A DNA stretch of 23,336 bases from a virus. Shown in pieces: positions 2,570 through 23,336 of this stretch (position 1 is its first letter; every line of letters starts with the position of its first letter). The position numbers were made by a program, and so were the translations under genes. The notes beneath the pieces are model-generated. The model did not search any database. It saw only the letters and a list, made by a program, of their open reading frames with translations, and was not told the origin of the DNA. The stretch covers positions 1 to 23,336 of IMG/VR virus record IMGVR_UViG_3300009159_003306; one strand, 5' to 3'.

Positions 2570-5458
2570 ATGGCAGACACAGGTAAACAAAGTCCACTAG
2601 GAATCAATCTATTAGGTTCTGCATTACAGAACACTGGATTAGGCATCAATAAAGTAGTTGCAGGTTATTTAGGTTCTAGCAAGAACAACGCAACATACAC
2701 GTTTGGTTCACTAGTACAAGATAGTTCACTTAGACTACTTACCTGGGCAATCAACGATGGCTATCTTAGAGGGCCGGGCGACAGCAACAATACACTGACT
2801 GACGATACCTATGATAATCTAATTTCAATAGGTGCAGGTGTTATCCCTGCTTTAGGAAATTCAGCTTCTGCTAAGTATGTAGTTTCAGATCCGGGCAATG
2901 TTTGGACAACTCAAGCACTAGCATATGCAGCACAAAAGGGAGTGACCCCTGCTCTTCCTGGACCGGCAAACAGCGGATATGGTGTTACTGGAAACACTGA
3001 CAACGGACAGCAAGCAACTTGGTATCCGTATGATACTACAAATCCAAATAAAGCAGTAACACAGTGGGGATTCTTACGACTCTTTGCATTACAAGCATGG
3101 AATGAGTTTAACTATAACGCTGCTGACCCGCTGCAAACAACTCCGCAGTATAAAGATTTCTTATCATCGTTCATGACGTTTAATTCGTTCATGACTAGTT
3201 CTAATCAAGCAATCTATGCTATAGACAATTCTAATACGTTCATGGAAGGTGCATATAGCAACATGAACGATCTAATTAGCGGTGACATATCCGGTGTATC
3301 ATTGTCTACTGTTGACTTTGGTACTGACTTAGAAAACTTAGGGAAAGCACTTGATCTAAAGCATATCGCAACATTCGGTACTCCTTCGACGCTGTTAGCT
3401 ACTATTGGAAAGAGCGGCGCAATGACAAAGGATTTGGGCTTTGCTTTGTTGGCAGCAGGGTTATCTAACTCTGAAATTGCGAGTATCACAGGCGGTATCG
3501 TACCTAATTCTAGCACAGACTTAGAACAAAAAATCTACGGTGCTTTTCTGATCATCACAGGTGAAAATCTAACGCACGTTCTTGCCCCGTTGCAATGTAA
3601 GACACAAGGTTTGGATACTCTAGCTGATCTTCTAAATCTACGAAAGATGTTTCCTATTAGTTATGAATCGTTGACCGTTCCTGTATACAACGGAACTACA
3701 GGTTTGCCTACTAACAGTAAGACATACTATCCTATCTACGTGAACGGCGGAATCAATCTTAACATAGATAGTCCTGCTATCAAAGACTATGTAGGTACTA
3801 TTGTTCCTAGTGGAACACCTCCGATCTTTGATAACACAACGAATCCGGCAAACTATCAAGAATTGCCAAAAGGATTTGGGTCTTATCTAGCAGACATTAT
3901 TCCTGCTGATCAGGCACTGGCAGCCGGTGCATTCTCTTATTCAATGCGTCAAATCAAAAACATTGACTCACTAAACTTTGAGAAATTTTCTAGAGTCTCT
4001 AAAGGAATTGAAAATACGGCTGATCTGCCGCTTGTTGCCGGAACAAATAAACCAACTAATCAAGAAGCAACAGACGATAGCAAGAGAATATGTTCATTAG
4101 GATCAGGCCCTGCTGGTTCTTACACAATGAGCGATTTCTTTGGCTCTATGTCAGGTCTTCCCTATCCTTGGAAGAGAATCAAGCAACGCATCACCCAACT
4201 TGACACTAGTGCATTAGCTAATATCTATCAGCAATTATACCTTGCTGTTACATGGGAACCTGCTACTGTTACGGTTCAATACACATCATACGTAGTTGAT
4301 ACTACTACGTACTACACTGTAACAGGATTAACTATTGATAATCCAGGTGGAGGATATGGTAGAGGTGGTGCAGGCGCACCCACTATCACTATATCGAACG
4401 GCGGTTCAGGTACTTCTCAAATTGGAATCAGTGATCAAGACGCAAGGTCAAACGGTTCCGGTACATACGGTAGAGTAATATCAGTTGAATTGACCTCTGC
4501 TGGAACAGACTTAACTTCTATTCCCACAGCAACGATTGAATGTCCCCCTACTTCGGGATTGGGAGGGTCAAATACTTCAAGCGGCACTACAGGTTGGAAC
4601 GATCCAATGAACGCAGTTGTTCAAGGTTATATCGATCAAGCAAATGCAGAAATCGCTCGAATCGCATCAGTTACTGCTAATTCAAGAACTGTGCTGCATT
4701 TGAATGAATATTGGAATATTCTAGGTATACAACTGGCAAGAGAACAACGTTCACGTTACACGGGATTTTCTCCTGTAAATGTTCCGGTAGACTTGTTCAC
4801 TAACCCTTACCCAACTAGTATCTATTCGTTCATCGATTCAATGCCCGCGTTTTCACAAGACACGAAACCACACGGGGCAGTACAAACTATCGAAGCATTG
4901 ACTGACTTAGATTCAGTTGGTGGACAGAGTGCAGTTGGTATGATGCGTCAAGAACGCAACCAAGCTAGATTGCAAAAGCTAGGTATAGACCCTGATAATA
5001 ACATTCCTGACACCCCTGCACCAAGTCTTGTCAGGACACTACTAGCTAACGGAACTGTCCCGGGAGCAGTAGATGGCATTGGAGATTATACTCTTCCCGC
5101 ATGGCCTACTAATACGATGGACGGTGAAGAAATTGTTCCTGAACCCGAAGGTCTGTACGTATCTCCGACTGGGTTCCAGCAAACCGAGGGCTTAAATGAA
5201 GGCGATATCACCCCTATTCTAGATGGTGATCCAAACCCAGTCGTTGCTTTCCTAGTTCCTGCTGGCCCTGCAATCATTCCGGAAAGTCGAACAGACAGCG
5301 TAGTGATCATTGCTCCTCCGTCAGAATACAATCCGGCAAATCTTCCTGCTAACTTAGATCCGAATTATATTAACAGCACGGTACTACCATCTACGTTGAG
5401 CATACAAAAAGCAATTGCTCATGTGATTGATTGTAACTGTGATTGCTGGGTACAATAA
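2570..5458 (+). CDS. Large virion structural protein (baseplate or tail-associated, putative)
   Basis: A 962-residue protein rich in Asn, Ser, Thr and Gly, typical of phage virion proteins. It begins MADTGKQSPLGINLLG after AAGGAAATACC. A Gly-rich beta segment around residues 575-655 (NPGGGYGRGGAGAPTITISN and NGSGTYGRVISVELTSAGTD) resembles the short beta repeats of marine phage structural proteins. The C-terminus is proline-rich and ends with a cysteine cluster, CNCDCW. No enzymatic motif was seen. The PAAR spike tip immediately upstream suggests a baseplate or tail-spike-complex role; I cannot name a specific homologue. A sigma70-type promoter follows the stop, closing the operon. Confidence 0.7.
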   Translation: MADTGKQSPLGINLLGSALQNTGLGINKVVAGYLGSSKNNATYTFGSLVQDSSLRLLTWAINDGYLRGPGDSNNTLTDDTYDNLISIGAGVIPALGNSASAKYVVSDPGNVWTTQALAYAAQKGVTPALPGPANSGYGVTGNTDNGQQATWYPYDTTNPNKAVTQWGFLRLFALQAWNEFNYNAADPLQTTPQYKDFLSSFMTFNSFMTSSNQAIYAIDNSNTFMEGAYSNMNDLISGDISGVSLSTVDFGTDLENLGKALDLKHIATFGTPSTLLATIGKSGAMTKDLGFALLAAGLSNSEIASITGGIVPNSSTDLEQKIYGAFLIITGENLTHVLAPLQCKTQGLDTLADLLNLRKMFPISYESLTVPVYNGTTGLPTNSKTYYPIYVNGGINLNIDSPAIKDYVGTIVPSGTPPIFDNTTNPANYQELPKGFGSYLADIIPADQALAAGAFSYSMRQIKNIDSLNFEKFSRVSKGIENTADLPLVAGTNKPTNQEATDDSKRICSLGSGPAGSYTMSDFFGSMSGLPYPWKRIKQRITQLDTSALANIYQQLYLAVTWEPATVTVQYTSYVVDTTTYYTVTGLTIDNPGGGYGRGGAGAPTITISNGGSGTSQIGISDQDARSNGSGTYGRVISVELTSAGTDLTSIPTATIECPPTSGLGGSNTSSGTTGWNDPMNAVVQGYIDQANAEIARIASVTANSRTVLHLNEYWNILGIQLAREQRSRYTGFSPVNVPVDLFTNPYPTSIYSFIDSMPAFSQDTKPHGAVQTIEALTDLDSVGGQSAVGMMRQERNQARLQKLGIDPDNNIPDTPAPSLVRTLLANGTVPGAVDGIGDYTLPAWPTNTMDGEEIVPEPEGLYVSPTGFQQTEGLNEGDITPILDGDPNPVVAFLVPAGPAIIPESRTDSVVIIAPPSEYNPANLPANLDPNYINSTVLPSTLSIQKAIAHVIDCNCDCWVQ

Positions 5459-7954: not shown

Positions 7955-8086
7955 ATGAAAATGAAAGCGTGGATGATCGTACCGATTGTTGCTGTGCTGC
8001 TGCCATTCGTAGTAGTATACACTTGGGTACGTCATCCACGTGAGTGTTTTACTCATCTAGTAAAACAATTTCGTCCCCGAGGCTGA
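7955..8086 (+). CDS. Small single-span membrane protein overlapping a tRNA-like gene
   Basis: A 43-residue protein starting immediately after the SPFH stop. Residues 5-24 are hydrophobic (WMIVPIVAVLLPFVVVYTWV), followed by a basic tail. No strong ribosome site is seen, so translation would depend on coupling with the SPFH gene. Its last 14 bases form the acceptor and early D-region of the tRNA-like gene at 8073, which is unusual. It may be a real membrane partner of the SPFH protein or a chance frame. Confidence 0.45.
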   Translation: MKMKAWMIVPIVAVLLPFVVVYTWVRHPRECFTHLVKQFRPRG

Positions 8087-8146
8087 GTGGTTCACACGGG
8101 CTTCTAAAACCCATGATCGCAGGTTCAATTCCTGTCGGGGACGCCA
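8073..8146 (+). tRNA. tRNA-like gene with CTA in the anticodon loop (possible amber suppressor)
   Basis: A 74-base tRNA-shaped element with encoded CCA. The acceptor stem GTCCCCG/CGGGGAC pairs perfectly, and the T arm GCAGG/CCTGT with loop TTCAATT is canonical with a terminal G.T pair. Counting back from a five-base variable loop, the anticodon loop is TTCTAAA, giving anticodon CTA, the complement of UAG. The anticodon stem has only three central G-C pairs with C.A mismatches at both ends, and no good D stem can be drawn (14-base D region). A nine-base loop with TCT (Arg) is the alternative. It could be a divergent suppressor tRNA, a damaged tRNA, or a tRNA mimic. Confidence 0.55.
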
Positions 8147-11171: not shown

Positions 11172-11912
11172 CTCTCCGCGCCCTGCGTTGCTATAGACAG
11201 TTGAGTCTGATACCAGGCCCGATGAAATCCAAATCACTTCATTTCCAATAAGGTCTGGGTACAGTTGATAAGATACCCCAGCCATACACGGATCGTTGAA
11301 TGGATTAAGATGAGTAATCAAAATCTTTTTGTCAACGCAATTATCTAGCCACTCTTTGACGATAACTGCTTCTTTATCGTGTTCTTCATTACACATTTCT
11401 GGAGTAGTCCACAGCGGATAAGAACCGTGATAGATATCTACTGAATCTACTGGCTTAAACAATGATTGGTCTTGGGTGTGTCCTAAGTTAACTTCTTTGT
11501 ACCATGCAGTTTTGTGCCAGTCTGATACTTCTACCTTTTCGGTAGTTTTGGGGTATCCGAACATGCACAATACACTGTACTTTTCTCCATTTATGTCTAG
11601 CTCAATTGGTTTCTGAAATCCATACTTTAAGTTTTTTGGCCAAAGTTCTGACATGCGCTGTCTAGTAGTCAGCGCAGTAGTAAGCTCATACCTGTTCTTT
11701 TGACGGGCAGCTTCCTGCCTGCCTGGATTATAAATGAAAGTTATATCGGGGTATTTTTGGCACATGCCCTCAGTGTAGAACATGCTTCTTCGAAACTGTG
11801 CTATATTTCCATTCACAACCACTACGTCACACTCGGGCATTTCGCCTTCTGCCGGGTGAGCAAGCTCATTGATCCAGTATTCCAAATCACTTATAACATG
11901 AATTTTAGTCAT
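11142..11912 (-). CDS. Metallophosphoesterase-like protein with substituted metal ligands
   Basis: The only gene on the - strand, 256 residues from the ATG at 11912 (MTKIHVISDLEYW). Its layout follows calcineurin-like phosphoesterases: strand then SDLE (residues 8-11, normally DxH), VVVVNGN (normally GD), YNPGRQE (normally GNHE) and ILITHLNPFND, which keeps the usual His. Three of the four metal motifs have replaced ligands, so it may be catalytically dead, use altered chemistry, or merely resemble the fold. It is convergent with the PP-loop gene and divergent from the protease gene. An upstream ATG at 11945 in frame is less likely because GGGGAT sits near 11912. Confidence 0.55.
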   Translation of the reverse strand: MTKIHVISDLEYWINELAHPAEGEMPECDVVVVNGNIAQFRRSMFYTEGMCQKYPDITFIYNPGRQEAARQKNRYELTTALTTRQRMSELWPKNLKYGFQKPIELDINGEKYSVLCMFGYPKTTEKVEVSDWHKTAWYKEVNLGHTQDQSLFKPVDSVDIYHGSYPLWTTPEMCNEEHDKEAVIVKEWLDNCVDKKILITHLNPFNDPCMAGVSYQLYPDLIGNEVIWISSGLVSDSTVYSNAGRGESIRNRVLEI

Positions 11913-21708: not shown

Positions 21709-22232
21709 GTCAATTTGGAACTGGAACATGGGTGAATGTTGTTAAGAACAGCATCTCCGAACACCTCTCTCACTTAGAGAGAAATTTTGAAATCGCCATG
21801 ACACAACATGGACTAGATGAGATTGATGCACATGCATGTGCGCTAGCTGCTGCTATCGCATCGGGTAACGGCGAACTTGCGTTTGAAATCTCAATGAATG
21901 GTCCTTTGTTTGGCAGGGATGAGAGGGAGTTGGTAGCACAAGCGGTTGTCAGCATGTCAATCGACAATGTATATCTCTCCTATCTAGACGCAGTTGACAT
22001 TGCAGAGTACAACTCTCCTAGGTCGCATTCGCTAGAAATTTTCGAACCGATCATGACCGATGAGACAGGTAAGGCTGCAATGTATGCATTTGCTGCTGCT
22101 ATCGTTCTTAAGCACAGCCGGTCATTTGCTTTGGTCGAATTGCTCAAGGATCGTAAGTTCACCCGTGAGCAGATTCAAGACATCGCAAACATCGCTGCTG
22201 TTGTCTCATCCATCAATAAAGCAATTATTTAA
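21705..22232 (+). CDS. Hypothetical helical protein, faint AhpD-like layout
   Basis: A 175-residue, almost wholly helical protein rich in Ala. Two similar stretches (ACALAAAIASGNGELAFEIS and AAMYAFAAAIVLKHS) and the ending FTREQIQDIANIAAVVSSINKAI recall the AhpD/carboxymuconolactone decarboxylase arrangement, but the catalytic CxxC is absent. Function unknown. ATGA overlap with the SGNH gene shows coupling; it ends the operon before the promoter at 22252. Confidence 0.65.
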   Translation: MSQFGTGTWVNVVKNSISEHLSHLERNFEIAMTQHGLDEIDAHACALAAAIASGNGELAFEISMNGPLFGRDERELVAQAVVSMSIDNVYLSYLDAVDIAEYNSPRSHSLEIFEPIMTDETGKAAMYAFAAAIVLKHSRSFALVELLKDRKFTREQIQDIANIAAVVSSINKAII

Positions 22233-22251
22233 CCGATAGGAAAAAAAGTTC

Positions 22252-22280
22252 TTGACATTCTCTAACTAGGCATATATAGT
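22252..22280 (+). promoter_or_regulatory. Sigma70-type promoter upstream of the structured RNA
   Basis: TTGACA at 22252-22257, 17 bases, TATAGT at 22275-22280, following a run of seven A. No convincing gene follows; it points to the RNA and tRNAs. Confidence 0.8.
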
Positions 22281-22349
22281 GTGTACATGATGACGAAACA
22301 GAGCTTTGACGCAAATCTGCCAAAAAGCGCCGTTAAATCAACATAAAGA

Positions 22350-22378
22350 TTGACAGGACTAAATAAACTTGCTATGAT
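22350..22378 (+). promoter_or_regulatory. Second sigma70-type promoter of the structured RNA
   Basis: TTGACA at 22350-22355, 17 bases, TATGAT at 22373-22378; predicted start near 22385. Both boxes are near consensus. Confidence 0.75.
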
Positions 22379-22384
22379 TACTAA

Positions 22385-22905
22385 ATGTTCGATATCGCTG
22401 AAACAGCATGACACCGGATTATGGGGACAACTCTCCATATTGGGCCAAGCTGCGGTAGCATATCCAACAGATGTTCGCAGTGCCTTTAATTCAATGATTG
22501 AAGGTGTCGGGGGATGAAGTAAGCATAGTTCATAAACTAGTTTATTTTGCCCCTGGGAATCGAAAGACTCTCAGGGTTTTCCATTAGTAAGAGGCTAAAA
22601 TCTCTTACAGTCAGATGAAAGACTGACAAAAAGTGCAAGTCGGAACGAGGCTGCAAAGCACTATAAAAAATGAACGGGCGGTGATAGGGATGAAATCTGC
22701 GGAGATAACGCAGAGAGTAAAAACTTTCAGTGAGGAACATCGTGATTCCTCGCAAGCGGGCAAGTCCGAAATGCCGGACAACATAGTCTCGCTTGTCAAC
22801 AAAAGGCTACTCATTTATTACACGAGAACATTGAAACTTAAACACCGCCCTCACCCTCTGAAGGTGAGACAACGCACGTTGAAAATGTTTTCATGTAAAA
22901 AATGA
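22385..22905 (+). ncRNA. Candidate large structured non-coding RNA (GOLLD/ROOL-like class)
   Basis: A stretch of about 520 bases without a credible gene between two strong promoters and a tRNA cluster. It contains at least eleven stem-loops: 22420-22439, 22449-22481, 22490-22502, 22551-22576, 22587-22608, 22608-22625, 22632-22662, 22696-22714, 22730-22753, 22753-22795 (outer, enclosing 22764-22779) and 22850-22868. Most are perfect or carry one G.T. Such density, length and position before phage tRNAs are the traits of the giant ornate RNAs GOLLD and ROOL, whose function is unknown. I cannot confirm a family from sequence alone. The 3' end may be set by tRNA processing at 22932. Confidence 0.65.
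22532..22545. repeat. 14-base perfect palindrome within the RNA region
   Basis: ATAAACTAGTTTAT reads the same on both strands. In RNA it could form an intermolecular kissing contact, or in DNA a protein site. Confidence 0.4.
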
Positions 22906-22931
22906 TCAATAAATATTCATGCAAAGATTAT

Positions 22932-23005
22932 TGACCCTTCGTCTAATGGTAGGACATCGGATTTTGATTCCGCGAATCGGGGTTCGAGTCCCTGAGGGTC
23001 ATCCA
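22932..23005 (+). tRNA. tRNA-Gln (TTG)
   Basis: 74 bases with encoded CCA. Acceptor TGACCCT/AGGGTCA, D stem GTCT/GGAC, anticodon loop TTTTGAT giving TTG, T arm CGGGG/CCCTG with loop TTCGAGT. The outermost anticodon-stem pair (T.C) is mismatched. Confidence 0.95.
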
Positions 23006-23011
23006 ATCAAT

Positions 23012-23087
23012 GCCCACTTAGCTCAGTTGGTAGAGCAATACACTAGTAATGTATAGGCCGCGAGTTCGAATCTTGCAGTGGGCACCA
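23012..23087 (+). tRNA. tRNA-Thr (AGT)
   Basis: 76 bases with CCA. Acceptor GCCCACT/AGTGGGC, D stem GCTC/GAGC, anticodon stem ATACA/TGTAT perfect, loop CTAGTAA giving AGT. A at the wobble position of a bacterial or phage tRNA-Thr is unusual. Confidence 0.92.
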
Positions 23088-23095
23088 TTCTTTAT

Positions 23096-23172
23096 GACTC
23101 CTTAACTCAACTGGACAGAGTGCAAGTCTTCGAAACTTGAAGTTGTGGGTTCGAATCCCTCAGGGGTCGCCA
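23096..23172 (+). tRNA. tRNA-Arg (TCG)
   Basis: 77 bases with CCA. Acceptor GACTCCT/AGGGGTC with one T.G, D stem ACTC/GAGT, anticodon stem CAAGT/ACTTG, loop CTTCGAA giving TCG. One T.T mismatch in the T stem. Confidence 0.93.
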
Positions 23173-23178
23173 ATTCAT

Positions 23179-23255
23179 GCCCGCGTAGCTCAGCCGGATA
23201 GAGCATCAGATTACGAATCTGAGGGTCGGAGGTTCGAATCCTTCCGCGGGCGCCA
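23179..23255 (+). tRNA. tRNA-Arg (ACG)
   Basis: 77 bases with CCA. All stems pair (acceptor GCCCGCG/CGCGGGC, anticodon TCAGA/TCTGA). Loop TTACGAA gives ACG, the normal substrate of TadA, which converts A34 to inosine. Confidence 0.95.
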
Positions 23256-23262
23256 ATTTTAT

Positions 23263-23336
23263 GTACGCTAAGTGTTACGGTAGCACGACTGGTTCCAACC
23301 CAGTTAGCGTGGGTTCGACTCCTACAGCGTATGCCA
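23263..23336 (+). tRNA. tRNA-Trp (CCA)
   Basis: 74 bases with CCA, ending at the last base of the window. Acceptor GTACGCT/AGCGTAT with a terminal G.T, D stem GTGT/GCAC, anticodon stem ACTGG/CCAGT, loop TTCCAAC giving CCA. Confidence 0.93.

Follow-up and report, generated by a model that had tools for sequence, protein, structure and literature searches.

Results

Genomic setting and distribution

The window, by which we mean the whole stretch of 23,336 bases that was analysed, is a virus record carrying genes for the RNR small subunit, RtcB (tRNA ligase family), nicotinamide phosphoribosyltransferase and other phage proteins. The region under study lies near its end, with a small GDSL-like lipase/acylhydrolase (Pfam PF13472; 21292-21705, + strand) among the genes that precede it, and comprises a promoter, a short leader ORF, a set of predicted helices, a structured RNA and a tRNA array, all on the + strand. 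The array (22932-23336) is cut by the contig end and holds five tRNAs, Gln(ttg), Thr(agt), Arg(tcg), Arg(acg) and Trp(cca), confirming the cluster that a sequence-only reading of this DNA had placed directly after the region. A further tRNA at 8073-8143 (+ strand) was found by Rfam and missed by ARAGORN. Its anticodon loop, TTCTAAA, suggests a CUA anticodon and therefore a putative amber suppressor; a tRNA with a CTA anticodon also lies upstream in the related loci L008, L009 and L011. TAG is the stop codon of one of the 21 ORFs of at least 100 aa on the + strand of the window, and reading through TAG made no major ORF of the window much longer.

Relatives were collected with the 175-aa protein encoded upstream of the region as the starting query, which gave 13 IMG/VR loci; nhmmer located the region downstream of this protein in 12 of them. 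A pattern search with the most conserved part of the region yielded 33 loci and looser patterns 37 at most, and the region is common to these 37 IMG/VR loci, which are environmental phage contigs. Among the 34 places scanned first, which include the window, 31 have tRNAs after the region and the other three lie on contigs that end within 120 bases; tRNAs also follow in the later-found loci L055-L058. The first downstream tRNA is tRNA-Gln in most loci, and no tRNAs were found upstream of the 34 scanned places, up to 3 kb each. The core of the region had no match among 84,980 bacterial and archaeal genomes in two scans, BLASTN against 50,697 phage records returned no DNA similar to the region, and neither similar DNA nor a similar leader peptide was found in cultured phages. 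In L055, a more distant relative, a permuted tmRNA (RF04321, tag ANTNFALAA) that may belong to the phage lies at 11414-11864 on the - strand, on one stretch with the leader, the core and the tRNA array. L053 (about 4480-4800) and L024 carry a short ORF between the structured RNA and the first tRNA, that of L053 beginning with MYKKTAKATQRKMMKTAEYAP.

Promoter and leader start

A sigma-70-type promoter, TTGACA-N17-TATAGT (11/12), is situated at 22252-22280 and keeps a similar position in most relatives. A strict consensus search of the window and its relatives placed a TTGACA-N17 promoter 84-124 nt upstream of the ATG of the leader in the window and most of the others, and in L055 and L056 a promoter is nearer to the ORF. 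The sequence-only reading had proposed two promoters. Both sequences are present and the first is conserved, but the second, TTGACA-N17-TATGAT at 22350-22378, is exact in the window only (TTTACA in L029 and L042) and its -10 element overlaps the leader start codon, so that it is probably incidental. Directly before the ATG, positions 22355-22373 hold AGGA, a possible Shine-Dalgarno sequence, and a conserved AU-rich spacer (AGGACTAAATAAACTTGCT). The spacing from AGGA to ATG is unusually long in the main group, at 15 nt, and is 8 nt in L055. Between the hairpin described below and the tRNAs, most loci have no strong promoter.

A leader ORF containing all 20 amino acids

The leader ORF occupies 22374-22517 and runs from ATG through 47 codons to TGA, encoding the peptide MITKCSISLKQHDTGLWGQLSILGQAAVAYPTDVRSAFNSMIEGVGG. 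An ORF of 45-50 codons is present at the same place in all relatives whose sequence extends far enough, and indels within 22374-22517 come in multiples of three in the alignment of the relatives collected first. The median dN/dS is 0.53, a moderate value. No Pfam family matched the leader, and its alignment contains no stretch conserved enough to serve as a search query.

The composition of the leader is more constrained than its sequence. The window leader contains all 20 amino acids and uses 39 distinct codons among its 47, more than any of the 6563 background 47-codon windows (mean 28.3, maximum 38); most leaders have 34-39 distinct codons. Complete sets were present in 20 of the 25 distinct leaders and in 1.4-2.8% of the background 45-50-codon windows, which were drawn from 365 genes of the same phages. 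Each of the five incomplete leaders is short of a single amino acid, Asp in L058 and Cys in the four others. L055 and L056 share the core and have leaders without evident similarity to the others, yet both hold all 20. L026 has no Trp or Cys at the usual positions and carries each of them at another, and Asp, Glu, Lys, Gln and Met also vary in position among leaders. When alignment columns were permuted among sequences, which keeps the make-up of each column and breaks compensation, 5000 permutations gave a mean of 7.4 and a maximum of 14 complete leaders, compared with the 18 of 23 observed. As relatedness inflates such tests, sets thinned to representatives below 60% identity matter more; here seven of nine leaders were complete (permuted mean 2.0, maximum 6), the effective sample sizes being small because the loci are related. 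Codon diversity also exceeded the expectation from the peptide and the codon usage of the phages (mean z +1.96; P = 0.0005 for the window), an excess that is absent in L053 and L056. Since residues relocate rather than being kept by position, the leader is unlike an ordinary peptide, and it is its completeness that appears to be selected. We are highly confident that the leader is genuine, that it is translated and that its composition is under selection.

The leader has no run of codons for a single regulatory amino acid, and codons exactly cognate to the phage tRNAs showed weak enrichment or none. If wobble is allowed, 75-94% of the tRNA species read some leader codon, a figure without a control. 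A search for analogous leaders, complete in amino acids and followed by a terminator ahead of a tRNA array, gave no convincing case in Xanthomonas phage XacN1, Felixounavirus EF202P1, Morganella phage MP1, Klebsiella phage KP185 or locus L005.

Predicted mutually exclusive helices at the end of the leader

The last codons of the leader include GGGG (22510-22513), which can pair with CCCC at 22550-22553 to form a candidate antiterminator helix (22510-22553), the extension register of which was read by hand. It is stacked on a spacer helix, 22516-22530/22535-22548, that follows the leader stop codon. CCCC is also the 5' arm of a terminator-like hairpin, CCCTGGGAATCGAAAGACTCTCAGGG (22551-22576; -14.0 kcal/mol), which is followed by TTTT up to position 22580, and the GGGG/CCCC pairing is predicted to exclude this hairpin. 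Across 22 distinct sequences the terminator stem is 99.4% paired, with compensatory U-A/C-G and G-C/A-U exchanges. Covariation was counted for the spacer helix and the terminator only, because the GGGG/CCCC register shifts among relatives; the spacer helix consists mostly of A-U and G-U pairs and is weakly informative. The same arrangement is built from different sequence in L053 (GGGGUAC...GUACCCC versus CCCCGGAAA...UUUCCGGGGUUUUUU) and in L055 and L056 (AGGUUUAAGUAU...AUACUUAAACCU versus AAACCUUAG...CUAAGGUUUUUUU).

In all leaders except three the hairpin is followed by a U-rich tail, the U tract being 4-7 long in most leaders, the majority having only four (UUUUCC); the window hairpin was not called by a strict terminator scan. 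The three exceptions, L031, L049 and L052, have UUAACC instead, which is poor for intrinsic termination, and their leaders also lack Cys. This joint absence of Cys and the U tract may reflect close kinship only. Two optional hairpins, 22587-22593/22602-22608 and 22610-22614/22623-22627, follow at 22587-22627. They are found in the window, L002/L034, L013/L028, L014/L048, L024, L036 and L053, and are absent from the other relatives.

Folding was simulated with a ribosome at each codon in turn and the transcript ending inside the terminator loop. For the leaders analysed in this way, the 5' arm of the terminator was mostly sequestered (usually 0.9-1.0) with P-site codons from 0 to about 38, and it was largely released with the ribosome at the last leader codons. 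When the codons of the ORF were permuted, early sequestration was as high as observed in 30% of trials for L048 and in 0-13% for each of the other 17 leaders. Dinucleotide-shuffled leaders often sequestered the GC-rich arm too (mean 0.6-0.86), and single-locus significance is modest for this reason; nor do the loci count as independent, being related. In full-length folding, the terminator was often the predicted equilibrium structure for early stalls as well, so that the switch would rely on co-transcriptional order. Under this folding model, 18-20 amino acids would be sensed in nearly all leaders and 15 of 20 in L026. One or more amino acids, often Glu, which is the one most frequently placed too late, occur in the last codons only, and stalls there would go unsensed.

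A structured RNA between the hairpin and the tRNAs

The 3' part of the region begins with a near-invariant 51-nt core (22631-22681), the most conserved part of the region. It contains a stem, 22632-22636/22658-22662, and a contact between positions 22650 and 22675, which was G-C in 14, C-G in six and U-A in two of 22 distinct sequences, with zero mismatches. We read this contact as a long-range Watson-Crick tertiary or pseudoknot interaction because the neighbouring bases do not extend a helix. A second structured domain (22682-22812) has hairpins at 22696-22701/22709-22714 and 22732-22736/22747-22751 and a nested hairpin in which 22754-22758/22790-22794 encloses 22764-22768/22775-22779. The latter corresponds to the nested stem-loop noticed earlier at about 22753-22795, which is real and covarying. 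Two-sided changes occurred in 16 of the 27 pairs of the 3' RNA, the core pair included. The 57 compensatory cells compare with 17.5 in shuffled alignments, none of 500 shuffles being as high, and sliding the pairing partners destroyed the pairing. Covariation among homologues, one of the checks that the sequence-only reading had named, was found in this domain, and the proposal made there of a structured RNA, which is conserved, with covarying pairs ahead of a phage tRNA cluster is supported.

The Rfam scan of the window identified tRNAs only, and no family matched 22631-22812. A 736-nt search (22200-22935; E up to 10) returned just two matches at chance level, neither of them GOLLD or ROOL, and no T-box or other Rfam leader or riboswitch family matched beyond these two. 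Four divergent relatives likewise contained no GOLLD or ROOL at Rfam gathering scores. The predicted RNA at 22631-22812, which covariation supports, is separate and new. Put-like processive antitermination RNAs let RNA polymerase read through later terminators; the position and extreme conservation of 22631-22812, on which this comparison rests, are suggestive of such a role. Our guess is that it could aid polymerase in crossing the untranslated tRNA array, as an element for antitermination or processing.

Discussion

The features of the 5' half, all of them established by computation, suggest a ribosome-mediated transcription attenuator, an assignment in which we have good confidence. Transcription would start at the 22252-22280 promoter, and a ribosome would enter the 47-codon leader. 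If all aminoacyl-tRNAs were available, it would reach the stop codon, which adjoins the antiterminator helix, and would open this helix; the terminator-like hairpin could then form, polymerase would stop and few tRNAs would be made. A tRNA lost to anticodon-nuclease cleavage or left uncharged would instead make the ribosome stall upstream in the leader; the leader end and spacer would then pair with the terminator 5' arm, and polymerase would continue into the tRNA genes. We infer that the hairpin terminates transcription and that stalling relieves termination. As the peptide contains every amino acid, a shortage of almost any one could be registered by a single short ORF. In the full model, which we regard as reasonably probable, the leader would sense tRNA shortage in general and so turn on the phage tRNA array.

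Phage tRNAs have been proposed as a counter to anticodon nucleases (PMC10264068; PMC11555353). On the basis of these papers and of RtcB in the window, host anticodon nucleases would be a plausible trigger in nature, although we consider it rather unlikely that they are the main one. A more far-reaching reading is that of a universal sensor of tRNA integrity, in which selection would keep 20 amino acids and a wide codon set within a 45-50-codon leader, the loss of almost any host tRNA would turn on the phage tRNA arsenal, and the new class of structured RNA downstream would help to express or process the array. We hold this reading tentatively, at slightly below an even chance. The near-invariant RNA behind the terminator is outside what the attenuator model explains.

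Three other explanations were weighed. The sequence-only reading had taken the approximately 680 bases to be devoid of a credible gene and to form one giant non-coding RNA, possibly of the GOLLD or ROOL kind. Its size, phage setting and tRNA adjacency fit a large ornate RNA, and GOLLD and ROOL are both often near tRNA islands (PMC12286853). The strong structure on which that reading relied is also real, since 22285-22931 folds at -186.8 kcal/mol compared with -150.1 +/- 8.0 for 20 shuffles (z = -4.57), and the 3' domain covaries. However, the absence of a gene was an error: a leader peptide is encoded in the 5' half, where its ORF persists in all relatives that are long enough and has indels in multiples of three, and terminator-like and antiterminator helices accompany it. 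The stem-loops are divided among the attenuator, the optional two-hairpin insert and a separate domain of about 180 nt, the Rfam scans of the window and of four divergent relatives identified neither GOLLD nor ROOL, and L055 and L056 retain the core but not the remaining sequence. A single giant RNA is therefore very improbable.

The ORF could instead encode a small functional protein, for example an anti-defence protein, with the hairpin as its terminator and an unrelated RNA gene beyond. The conservation of the ORF and its start context and the dN/dS value agree with this; on the other hand, the sequence drifts, to the point that the L055 and L056 leaders have no clear similarity to the others, while the amino-acid set stays complete. 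This explanation also fits poorly with a peptide that has no Pfam match, with an ORF end that pairs with the terminator arm and with most loci lacking a strong promoter between the hairpin and the tRNAs, and we consider it unlikely. Somewhat less likely still is a leader that reports general translation inhibition, caused by antibiotics, starvation or host shut-off, and that mainly regulates the downstream RNA instead of the tRNAs. Such a role would be in keeping with the high conservation of the downstream core and has a parallel in toiL of E. coli, a multipurpose uORF responsive to ribosome-targeting antibiotics of several classes (PMC12121999), but it would call for neither a full set of 20 amino acids nor high codon diversity, and the tRNAs are the constant neighbours.

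If the tRNA-shortage sensor is correct, tRNAs would be made on demand when the tRNA pool of the cell fails, which is a better fit to counter-defence against anticodon nucleases than to constitutive codon compensation. It would also represent an attenuator selected for a complete amino-acid alphabet instead of a run of one codon, accompanied by an undescribed RNA family in 37 environmental phage contigs. In the literature that was searched, leader-peptide regulation of phage tRNA arrays was not found described.

The proposed system resembles the trp, his, leu and thr attenuators in its promoter, short leader ORF and mutually exclusive helices and in the position of the ribosome as the switch, which is here predicted. 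In amino-acid operons the regulatory codons of the leader specify the operon's own amino acid (PMC1183508), whereas the phage leader samples all 20 amino acids and its predicted regulated genes are phage tRNAs. As it lacks a codon run for a single amino acid, it would be a variant attenuator rather than a member of the single-amino-acid kind. With toiL of the E. coli topAI-yjhQ operon, it shares the use of one short uORF for several translation stresses, with stalls at different positions (PMC12121999). toiL is antibiotic-responsive and acts via RBS occlusion and Rho (PMC12121999), whereas the predicted output of the phage leader is an intrinsic-type terminator before tRNAs and its selected feature is a complete amino-acid set. 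The phage setting, tRNA adjacency and extensive structure are shared with GOLLD and ROOL, but no covariance model matches, the 3' RNA is only about 180 nt long and a coding leader makes up the 5' half. Phage tRNA counter-defence (PMC10264068; PMC11555353) has the same output genes, and it offers a plausible trigger for the leader described here.
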